Positions 10,093 through 62,194 of a DNA stretch of 64,000 bases are shown one piece after another. The position numbers and the translations under genes are program-made. Every line of letters begins with the position of its first letter. Within the stretch, counting starts at the first letter, position 1. The stretch comes from Solobacterium sp. (GTDB taxonomy: Bacteria; Bacillota_I; Bacilli_A; Erysipelotrichales; Erysipelotrichaceae), in assembly GCA_017512725.1 (NCBI GenBank), contig JAFWEW010000031.1, positions 1 through 64,000 on the forward strand, given 5' to 3'. The notes below the pieces were generated by a model that was not told the origin of the DNA, searched no databases, and saw nothing but the letters and a program-made list of their open reading frames with translations.

Positions 10093-10302
10093 ATGCAATT
10101 CATTCCGACGCAGGTATTTGGTGACTTGTGTGCAGATACTTTAAAGAAAAGTCTGAACGAGAAAAACTATTCCTTAATGCAGGCAGCGATGAATTTTGTA
10201 AATAAGTCAGATTTACTATGGAGCTCCCAAAACGGATGCGATCATTCGTTTATGGCTTATCATATCGTTCACTATCTTTCGTCCGCAAAATATGAAACCT
10301 GA
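10093..10302 (+). pseudogene. ORF truncated by IS1380 left end
   Basis: A 69-codon frame (starting MQFIPTQVFGDLCADTLKK) runs directly into the conserved left end of IS1380 at about 10299, where a TGA supplied by the element ends it. The body (NEKNYSLMQAAMNFVNKSD, HSFMAYHIVHYLSSAKYE) looks like a soluble alpha-helical domain cut short. I do not recognise it. The start has no good ribosome site, so the 5' end may also be lost. Confidence 0.4.
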
Positions 10303-10562
10303 ATAATTCACCAAATCGTTTTGAAGCCGGTAATCTCGCATGATTATCAGCTTTTTGAATCTATGTTGCCAAACCCATTGGGTTTGTATGCATGTATAGA
10401 AAAGGTTCCTTATAATGTAATTGCTAAAGTCACAAGAAAGGAACCAATTACATGTTAGAACAGACACCGCAATTTGCTAATATCAACTTTAACGGGGGTA
10501 ATCTCTCCAGCGACGGCGGAGCCATTCTCTTACTGCACTTCCTCAGCAAACTGAAGATCATG
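10299..10562 (+). mobile_element. IS1380-family left end, truncated copy 1
   Basis: From CTGAATAATTCACCAAATCG to the transposase start at 10452 the sequence is nearly identical to 11552-11709, including GGTTTGTATGCATG and GAAAAGGTTCCTTATAATG. The transposase frame begins MLEQTPQFANINFNGG and SSDGGAILLLHFL and is cut after 37 codons at about 10562, where unrelated sequence joins. It retains the promoter (CCTTATAATG) so could still fire transcription into the DNA that follows. Confidence 0.82.
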
Positions 10563-10570
10563 TCTCACAA

Positions 10571-10735
10571 TTGAATCGTGTGCTGAACAAATACAGCATC
10601 TCTGACCAGTATTTCGATCTTGTCAATCTGATGGTCATGAAGCTTATCAGTAATTTCTGTTGTAAGGATAATTCCCATATTCTGTGCCTCGTGCTTACAG
10701 AATATGGCATGGTTACAGTTACAGAGCCGCTGTAA
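10571..10735 (+). pseudogene. 3' fragment of an unknown gene
   Basis: Right after the IS1380 break a frame of about 54 codons reads LNRVLNKYSISDQYFDLVNL, then KLISNFCCKDNSHILCLVL and TEYGMVTVTEPL before a TAA. It has no start of its own and looks like a gene tail whose 5' part was lost when the IS fragment was joined. A terminator overlaps its stop, consistent with a true gene end. Family unknown. Confidence 0.45.
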
Positions 10736-10740
10736 CTTTT
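10712..10740 (+). terminator. Terminator overlapping the gene-tail stop
   Basis: GTTACAG (10712-10718) pairs with CTGTAAC (10730-10736), followed by TTTT. The stop codon of the 10571 fragment lies in the right arm. Confidence 0.6.
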
Positions 10741-10823
10741 ATCGTGCAGCGAATAAATCACCAATTTGCGTGAATTACATTTATTTTTTTCGTATATATT
10801 AATGAAAGAAGGAGTGAATACTT

Positions 10824-11105
10824 ATGAACAAAGAAATAGAATTGTCTGATGAAGAACTAGAAGAAGTTTCTGGCGGAGCTTGGTCAGTTAATGGAATGAA
10901 GCGTATTGGAGAGATAACTATTAAAGGAAAGGGAATAGAGATTAAAACTCAACCTAGCAATAGCGCTAAAACAACTTTAACACTTGATTTTAGATGGTGT
11001 CCAGTATATGAAATTGAACAAAATGAAGGTTTAATTTGGTATAGAGTATCTGAAAAAATGTATGTTGCTCAACAAGCAGGTGTAACTTTCAAAATGTTAG
11101 GTTAG
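10824..11105 (+). CDS. Double-glycine leader peptide with SH3-like core (1)
   Basis: 93 residues. The N-terminus MNKEIELSDEELEEVSGG is a textbook double-glycine leader, the kind cut by peptidase-containing ABC exporters (PCAT/bacteriocin type). The 75-residue core after GG is not a short bacteriocin but a beta-rich segment (IGEITIKGKGIEIKTQPSN, then WCPVYEIEQNEGLIWYRV and MYVA) that follows the bacterial SH3b pattern. AAGAAGGAG lies nine bases before the ATG. It is clearly more AT-rich than the surrounding genes, pointing to recent transfer, and is tandem with a diverged paralogue 22 bases downstream. No exporter or modification enzyme is in the window. A secreted effector or wall-binding peptide is inferred. 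Confidence 0.75.
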   Translation: MNKEIELSDEELEEVSGGAWSVNGMKRIGEITIKGKGIEIKTQPSNSAKTTLTLDFRWCPVYEIEQNEGLIWYRVSEKMYVAQQAGVTFKMLG

Positions 11106-11127
11106 ATTAATCAACGGAGGTCAAACA

Positions 11128-11418
11128 ATGACAAAAGAATTAATAATTGATGATGAATTAGAAGAAATATCTGGTGGTACAGATCATAAAATAGATGGTA
11201 AAACTCCTATTGGTAAGTTAATAGTTTTAAAAGAAAATATATATTTTAGATATGAACCTGATAAATATTCTTCAGATTGGGGAACAGCGCAAACTGGTAT
11301 TACATATTCAGTTTATGAAATAAAACAAAACAATGGCTTAAAATGGTATTTAGTAGATAATCATTCATGGTTTGGTGATGATGGAACGAATTGCATATTT
11401 ACCTTTGGAGCAAACTAA
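11128..11418 (+). CDS. Double-glycine leader peptide with SH3-like core (2)
   Basis: 96 residues, a paralogue of the preceding gene. The leader MTKELIIDDELEEISGG ends in the same double glycine. The core repeats the pattern PIGKLIVLKENIYFRYEPD, SVYEIKQNNGLKWYLVDNHS, against IGEITIKGKGIEIKTQPS and PVYEIEQNEGLIWYRV in the first, so both keep the SH3b-like strand order while differing at most surface positions. CGGAGG sits seven bases upstream. A strong terminator closes the pair at 11453. AT-rich codon use matches its partner. Divergence of two tandem cores suggests a target-specific or immunity-linked pair, but nothing here proves that. Confidence 0.75.
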   Translation: MTKELIIDDELEEISGGTDHKIDGKTPIGKLIVLKENIYFRYEPDKYSSDWGTAQTGITYSVYEIKQNNGLKWYLVDNHSWFGDDGTNCIFTFGAN

Positions 11419-11452
11419 ATCATCAAACAACGAAAATTTATCAACAAATAAT

Positions 11453-11484
11453 CCTGATTGAAGCAACATTCATCAGGGTTTTTT
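11453..11484 (+). terminator. Terminator of the double-glycine peptide operon
   Basis: CCTGAT (11453) pairs with ATCAGG (11472-11477), followed by GTTTTTTG. Confidence 0.75.
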
Positions 11485-11548
11485 GTTACAGTTCCCGATC
11501 ATGGCTGAATTTCTGTGTATTACTCCTCATATCTGCCGTCATACTTAT

Positions 11549-12239
11549 ACCTGAACCTGAATAATTCACCAAATCATTTTGAAACCAGTAATCACTCATG
11601 ATTATCGGCTTTTTCAATATTTCTCATCAAACCTATTGGGTTTGTATGCATGCATAGAAAAGGTTCCTTATAATGTAATTGTCCAGACCACAAGAAAGGA
11701 ACCAATTACATGTTAGAACATACTCCGAAGTTTTCCAATATCAATTTCAACGGAGGCAATCTCTCCAGCGATGGAGGAGCTATTCTCTTACTTCATTTCC
11801 TCAATAAATTGAAGATCATGGATAAGTTCAGACATATCCCGTTCTACGATCTTCGGGCAGTTCCCATATATTCAAACAATGAAATCCTTTCACAGTTGGT
11901 ATCCAGAACTCTGCTCGGATACTTCAATCAGGATGATCAGAAAGTTCTTTTGGAAGATCCACTGCTGTCCAAGTACTTTTCTCCCTGCTCTCAGCCTACT
12001 GTATCAAGATTCTTTGACCGGGTCGTCAATCAGACCAATGTAGCACTCCGTGAACAACTGATCGAAATGGCCTGTCAGTATGTTAATAAGAACGTTCGTG
12101 ATCCCATCATCGATGCGGATTCAACACTGATTGAGACATACGGAAATCAGGAAGCCAGTGCTTATATTCATCACTATGACGAAACGGGATATCATCCTTT
12201 AATGATCAATGAGTTTCATTCAAAGCTTCTTCTTTCTGC
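11549..12239 (+). mobile_element. IS1380-family element, truncated copy 2
   Basis: The left end (CTGAATAATTCACCAAATCA onward) matches copy 1 at 10299 in the same orientation. The transposase starts at 11710 and is intact for about 170 codons, then breaks at about 12210-12239 into the interior of a bcsB-like gene. No right inverted repeat is present. Two same-direction truncated left ends around a foreign cassette suggest successive insertion/deletion or recombination between IS copies. Confidence 0.8.
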
Positions 12240-12267
12240 GGTACCGAGATCCCTCTGGACCGCCTGA
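11710..12267 (+). pseudogene. IS1380 transposase, 3'-truncated
   Basis: The frame begins MLEHTPKFSNINFNGGNLSS and includes SRFFDRVVNQTN and DPIIDADSTLIETYGNQE, the first catalytic Asp block (DADST) of IS1380/IS4-like DDE transposases. A full IS1380 transposase has over 400 residues; here recognisable sequence stops near residue 168 and the last codons (KLLLSAVPRSLWTA) are read from bcsB DNA in the wrong frame. It lacks the later Asp and Glu and cannot be active. Confidence 0.82.
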
Positions 12268-61803: not shown

Positions 61804-61963
61804 TCTATTTTTTATATTATTCCCAAAATATTGCTTTTGTTAATTTTTTTGAAGGGTATTATCCGAAAAGTCCGGGACTGTACGGGTGGATTCTGTCAAA
61901 ATAATACGTATAAACGGATGAAACCATAAAAGGTAGTCCAGTCAGCAGAAAAGGAGGATACCA

Positions 61964-62194
61964 ATGATGAACACAAAACTAACGGAAATGGATCTCATGC
62001 AGGTTAACGGCGGACTGAAGCCGGACTGGAAGCGAATCATAGATGACGCGATTTCGAACATGAAAGACTACGGACAGTCCAAAGATGTCCTGCTGCGAAT
62101 GCTGGAACGAAGCAGAAACAGTATCGACATTAACATTGAAAATGATTCAGAGTACAGCGTAGTAATCGAGTATATCAACTCTCACTGGGACTGA
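61964..62194 (+). CDS. Double-glycine leader peptide, 76 aa
   Basis: AAAAGGAGG sits seven bases before the ATG. The N-terminus MMNTKLTEMDLMQVNGG fits the LSxxELxxIxGG leader consensus; the 59-residue core is helical and charged (LKPDWKRIIDDAISNMKDYG, QSKDVLLRMLERSRNSIDIN) ending EYINSHWD. It has no sequence match to the two SH3-type peptides at 10.8-11.4 kb but the leader type is the same, suggesting one exporter could handle all three. No transporter nearby. A pheromone, bacteriocin or modified peptide precursor are options; nothing decides. Confidence 0.65.
   Translation: MMNTKLTEMDLMQVNGGLKPDWKRIIDDAISNMKDYGQSKDVLLRMLERSRNSIDINIENDSEYSVVIEYINSHWD

Follow-up and report, generated by a model that had tools for sequence, protein, structure and literature searches.

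A tandem pair of small genes in the window (the whole 64,000-nucleotide stretch of DNA analysed, part of contig C12 of a 2.7-Mb draft genome, G000) encodes two proteins, P1 and P2, in which a double-glycine (GG) leader is followed by a predicted SH3b domain. These proteins are probably exported in trans by an NHLM-type exporter encoded on contig C45 of the same genome and act outside the cell. The pair would be transcribed from an ECF-type promoter common to some 20 other scattered genes for small GG-leader proteins, perhaps under the control of the sigma factor linked to the exporter; the pair arrived recently inside a block bordered by insertion sequences (IS). The C39-peptidase ABC exporter would cut behind the GG, and the freed SH3b barrels of 75-79 amino acids (aa) would have as their likeliest ligand wall material, either from the producer itself or from neighbouring cells. 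Export, with cleavage behind the GG as a predicted step, is considered probable, and the chance of wall binding is put at about even.

Double-glycine leaders are export tags usually borne by bacteriocins, and here such a tag appears to be joined to a folded domain of a wall-binding type. The exporter, the leader and the SH3b domain are each already known. In the literature searched, the coverage of which was incomplete, no family of GG-leader SH3 proteins was described, and neither were the joining of a GG leader to SH3b, the recurring pair or the promoter-linked gene set reported below.

Gene pair and leaders

The features of the window that bear on the pair are collected in Table 1. An initial sequence-only reading had reported tandem GG-leader genes at 10824-11484, and both open reading frames (ORFs) are indeed present and intact, separated by a 22-bp gap and each preceded by a ribosome-binding site. 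The two proteins are paralogues (33% identity over 92 aa, E 4e-12).

Table 1. Features of the gene pair, its surroundings and a further GG-leader gene in the window
Feature	Position	Strand	Details
IS1380-type left end, copy 1	10297..10562	+	starts CCTGAATAATTCACCAAAT; 85% identical to 11554-11820
Mobile block common to window and G032	10297..11467	+	1,171 bp, 99.2% identical, 9 differences
ECF-like promoter TGAAT-N15-CGTATA	10771..10796	+	27 bp before P1 ATG; one mismatch to TGGAT-N15-CGTATA
P1, GG-leader SH3b protein 1 (predicted)	10824..11105	+	93 aa = 18-aa leader + 75-aa core
P2, GG-leader SH3b protein 2 (predicted)	11128..11418	+	96 aa = 17-aa leader + 79-aa core
Intrinsic-terminator-like hairpin and T run	~11450..11485	+	RNAfold -16.6 kcal/mol
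Left part of second IS1380-type element	11554..12264	+	truncated transposase 11710-12264
Promoter of a further GG-leader gene (exact TGGAT-N15-CGTATA)	61887..61912	+	
GG-leader gene, same putative regulon	61964..62194	+	76 aa, leader MMNTKLTEMDLMQVNGG

The leader consensus of PCAT substrates is L(-12)xxxE(-8)L(-7)xxxxG(-2)G(-1) (PMC6959990). The leader of P1, MNKEIELSDEELEEVSGG, fits it completely, and that of P2, MTKELIIDDELEEISGG, fits it except for Ile instead of Leu at -12, which makes the proposed processing by a PCAT-type peptidase likely. Bacteriocin-leader models of NCBIfam match the two proteins weakly, and attempts to name them directly with Pfam or NCBIfam yielded nothing past these weak leader matches.

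SH3b cores

The proposal that the cores follow an SH3 pattern and not that of a bacteriocin helix is supported by homology, by AF2 models and by alignments to lysin domains. In phmmer searches, the cores of P1 and P2 show homology to domains at the C-terminal end of larger proteins from the same genus, several of which are WG-repeat proteins with lipoprotein-like N-termini and contain PF08239 (SH3_3). The suggested HMM comparison gave a divided result, in that PF08239 directly matches seven of the 11 GG-SH3 family proteins (best E 4.8e-5), whereas P1 and P2 themselves have no match at the gathering score. In AF2 models of 11 sequences, the cores reach a pLDDT of about 90 and the leaders stay below 50; the cores are predicted to fold as SH3, as the sequence-only reading required. 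The modelled cores align to the SH3b domains of lysostaphin, PlyPy, Ly7917, PlySb and ALE-1 with Z of about 7-9 and an rmsd of about 2.5 A over 65-70 residues. Foldseek alone returned E-values of about 0.1 or worse for the core models, and for this reason the assignment of P1 and P2 to SH3b leans on homology to accepted members and on the predicted fold jointly. The Trp that is conserved in the KWIAND motif is missing from P1, whose ligand site may therefore differ.

The wall-targeting SH3b domains of lysins (lysostaphin, ALE-1, PlyPy and PlySb) share the predicted fold and a distant sequence similarity with the cores of P1 and P2. They are C-terminal parts of enzymes, whereas the putative SH3b domain of P1 and P2 stands alone behind an export leader.

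Related genes in other genomes

The genomes used for comparison are drafts and mostly metagenome-assembled. The recommended search for further GG-leader SH3 genes, performed with a profile of leader and core, detected stand-alone genes (90-100 aa) in a second Erysipelotrichaceae genus. Seven genomes of that genus carry them, and the genus is represented by MAGs labelled Erysipelotrichaceae or Solobacterium whose hosts are mainly goat and cattle. Such genes are also found in G032. The family is known from two Erysipelotrichaceae genera, and its leaders, on whose conservation in homologues the sequence-only reading depended, are kept across both. In an even sample of 392 genomes of the wider phylum, no further stand-alone GG-SH3 genes and only larger SH3 proteins were found. 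The peptide pattern of the family had no match in IMG/VR, and therefore no phage link was found for it.

Three genomes of the second genus (G224, G223 and G219) share one syntenic group of GG-SH3 genes, with dN/dS of 0.06-0.07 at dS of 0.8-1.2, and these genes are under strong purifying selection. A tandem pair is present in G250 (L082), with the gene order reversed relative to the pair in the window. Its gene L082a groups with P2 (support 91/91), and L082b is placed with P1 (98/92) in a group that includes a long-branch row. By sequence, the two-type pair is likely to recur, the remote pair holding one probable relative each of P1 and P2. That all GG-SH3 cores share one origin was also considered, but the tree, which needs four changes and has few columns, does not show it.

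A candidate exporter on another contig

A co-located PCAT exporter had been proposed as a check, and the genes around P1 and P2 include no exporter beside the pair. The candidate is an NHLM exporter on contig C45, and since it is found only on another contig, export of P1 and P2 would be in trans. The C45 operon comprises an ECF sigma gene, a gene for a short HlyD-like protein, ABC1 with a peptidase domain, and ABC2. ABC1 matches TIGR03796 with 923 bits, over the cut-off, and its catalytic Cys and His are intact (ECGAAC and HFVV motifs), so that the genome of the window encodes an exporter with the intact C39 peptidase expected for PCAT substrates.

In G250, a GG-SH3 gene lies within an exporter cluster (contig C81) together with matches to TIGR03796 (920 bits vs a cut-off of 853) and TIGR03797, a short HlyD-like protein, an ECF sigma factor and further GG-leader genes. 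Across the second genus, a TIGR03796-type exporter is encoded by six of the seven GG-SH3 carriers and by none of the 14 non-carriers (Fisher p of about 1e-4, worked by hand and ignoring the relatedness of the genomes). The exceptions among carriers are G219, which shows no NHLM exporter, and G220, which is one of the six and has a divergent type only. In the genus of the window, both carriers (2/2) have the exporter type, compared with 17/70 genomes over the cut-off.

These data bear on the possibility that the GG motif is no export signal at all, and that the proteins are intracellular and the pair is a domesticated, IS-carried fragment of a lipoprotein SH3 domain. The lack of a linked exporter is compatible with this explanation, and so are the cytoplasmic-looking cores (zinc ribbon and ferredoxin) of several sister proteins. 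Against it stand the full PCAT consensus in P1 and the nearly full one in P2, the conservation of leaders across genera, the association of GG-SH3 carriage with the exporter and the one GG-SH3 gene within an exporter cluster; we consider it quite improbable.

A second ABC1/ABC2 set, at C12:126022 and 62 kb beyond the window, was set aside as the exporter; its C39 domain has neither the catalytic Cys (ENGAAAL) nor the His. ABC1 proteins with such a Cys/His-less C39 domain are conserved in G000 (C12:126022-128190, L044), G010 (L222) and G032 (L224), and NHLM-type ABC1 proteins of this kind may be exporters that bind leaders without cutting them. In addition, two genomes encode a small GG protein (69-75 aa, ...FAAGGK...; L081:1351-1560 and L078:12024-12251) whose gene overlaps or abuts one for an ECF sigma factor; the protein is perhaps a regulator of that sigma factor.

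An ECF-like promoter and a putative regulon

The motif TGGAT-N15-CGTATA is common to the upstream regions of GG-leader genes in the genome of the window. This genome contains 13 exact sites, compared with none for a reversed-pattern control, and 74 sites with at most one mismatch, compared with 24 for the reversed pattern. A GG-leader ORF is headed by 10 of the 13 exact sites (one of the remaining sites lies at a contig end) and by 12 of the 61 one-mismatch sites, while the chance rate, estimated from random window positions, is 3.5%. These own-genome counts are not fully independent, because the motif was first spotted on these same genes. An independent repeat is provided by G010, with 14 exact sites, 10 of them before GG-leader ORFs. 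Both the excess of exact sites over the control and this replicate point to a shared promoter of the kind expected for an ECF-sigma regulon.

Elsewhere in the genus, exact sites number 0-6 per genome, and the regulon in its exact form is therefore not general. The ECF sigma gene that heads the C45 exporter operon has no promoter motif in its own upstream region, and G032, with both the same sigma factor and the pair, has just three exact sites; for these reasons, this sigma factor is a candidate regulator only.

On this point the sequence-only reading needs correction: the pair does not stand alone, but is part of a numerous group of GG-leader genes that differ in their cores and have a promoter motif in common. 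The genes behind 10 of the 13 exact sites encode GG leaders followed by varied cores, and the cores of the set range from a 4Fe-4S ferredoxin and zinc ribbons to unnamed ones. The SH3 pair therefore seems to be a mobile part of a scattered, apparently co-controlled regulon of exported small proteins. A broader interpretation, to which we give slightly less than an even chance, is that a single ECF-type promoter together with a single NHLM exporter serves a scattered secretome of small, folded and unmodified proteins, which can grow as IS-bordered cassettes add members, and that this is a general export programme of gut Erysipelotrichaceae and no bacteriocin cluster. Export of the set would make C39/NHLM exporters general secretion systems for small proteins in gut Firmicutes, and their cargo could be listed directly from promoter motif and leader.

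Mobile block

The cassette had been described as AT-rich, terminated, flanked by two IS1380 left ends and recently moved, and these points are borne out. Its G+C content is 30%, compared with 46.5% for the window. The two IS left ends enclose it (Table 1), and the transposase of the second element (PF13701 DDE_Tnp_1_4, E 5e-35) is truncated at profile position 183 of 435. The block recurs in G032, a Solobacterium MAG of another species from sheep gut, where the flanks are unrelated on both sides and the left border is exactly that of the IS left end. Between the two genomes, ABC1 and the sigma gene are about 72.5% identical, far below the identity of the block, which was therefore exchanged recently between species. 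The terminator-like hairpin at the end of the cassette is not listed by a simple consensus terminator scan, and its 3' arm is missing from the G032 copy in the flank comparison.

Known systems and possible roles

Clostridium thermocellum CtA, a GG-leader protein of about 90 aa, is a substrate of the C39-peptidase ABC exporter PCAT1 (PMC6959990), and it resembles P1 and P2 in size and leader consensus. In the complex, the CtA cargo is reported to be unstructured (PMC6959990), whereas the core of P1 and P2 is a predicted SH3b domain, and the candidate exporter here, of the NHLM type with two ABC proteins, is not linked to the pair.

The NHLP and Nif11 (N11P) RiPP precursors, with leaders of about 70-83 aa, pair with TIGR03794/03796/03797 exporters (PMC2887384). 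The same exporter families recur here: in G250, both TIGR03796 and TIGR03797 score over their cut-offs, as does TIGR03796 in the window's own genome. Those long leaders precede a modified peptide, whereas the 17-18-aa leaders of P1 and P2 precede a domain predicted to be folded. P1 and P2 do not fit such precursors in leader length and lack a long nitrile-hydratase- or Nif11-like leader; TIGR03798 matches P1 over its last 13 profile positions only (E 0.19). Inspected by eye, the gene neighbourhoods of the pair and of the C45 exporter showed no RiPP modification enzymes (LanM, cyclodehydratase or radical SAM), and none appeared at the exporter loci examined. A class IIb two-peptide bacteriocin is likewise a poor fit, since the cores are predicted beta-barrels of 75 and 79 aa and not short amphipathic peptides.

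An antagonistic role, with P1 and P2 released as a bacteriocin-like two-component pair that binds and disturbs the cell wall of competitors, is considered unlikely. It would agree with the bacteriocin-type leader and its weak model matches, the tandem occurrence of two paralogous types in two genera, the movement of the pair between species, and nearest solved structures that are targeting domains of wall-lytic enzymes. On the other hand, neither a catalytic domain nor a membrane-active helix was seen at the pair, and no immunity-like gene was seen beside it, where IS remnants flank. Killing would also have to be achieved by a lone binding domain, and we know of no binding domain that kills by itself.

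Toxins usually change fast, unlike the GG-SH3 genes under strong purifying selection, which would fit better with non-toxic surface, matrix or signalling proteins. Same-genus SH3b domains on proteins with lipoprotein-like N-termini also favour such a role. A direct precedent is found in Synechococcus elongatus, where, according to the part of the report consulted, the GG-leader proteins EbfG1-4 depend on a C39 exporter (PteB) and are needed for biofilm, so that several small GG-leader proteins pass through one exporter for a purpose other than killing and GG-leader proteins need not be bacteriocins (PMC4997328). The same part of that report describes the EbfG cores as having no known domain, in contrast to the putative SH3b cores of P1 and P2, and, unlike for the present set, mentions no ECF-type promoter set (PMC4997328). 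By this analogy, a surface, matrix or signalling role for the regulon, and for P1 and P2 within it, is possible but doubtful.

Other proteins of the promoter set

Several other members of the promoter-linked set have recognizable cores. One GG-leader protein (L178, G000:C23:300-1300) has a 4Fe-4S dicluster ferredoxin core (Fer4, E 1e-9), which is an odd cargo for a C39 exporter. Three more from the same genome (L033, L034 and L118) have zinc-ribbon-like cores (CPxCG...CxxCG); zinc-ribbon and ferredoxin cores look cytoplasmic and are odd for exported proteins. Moreover, in G010 (C160, L216), two tandem GG-leader genes have identical promoter copies, and their cores resemble those of GG proteins in L042 and L082.
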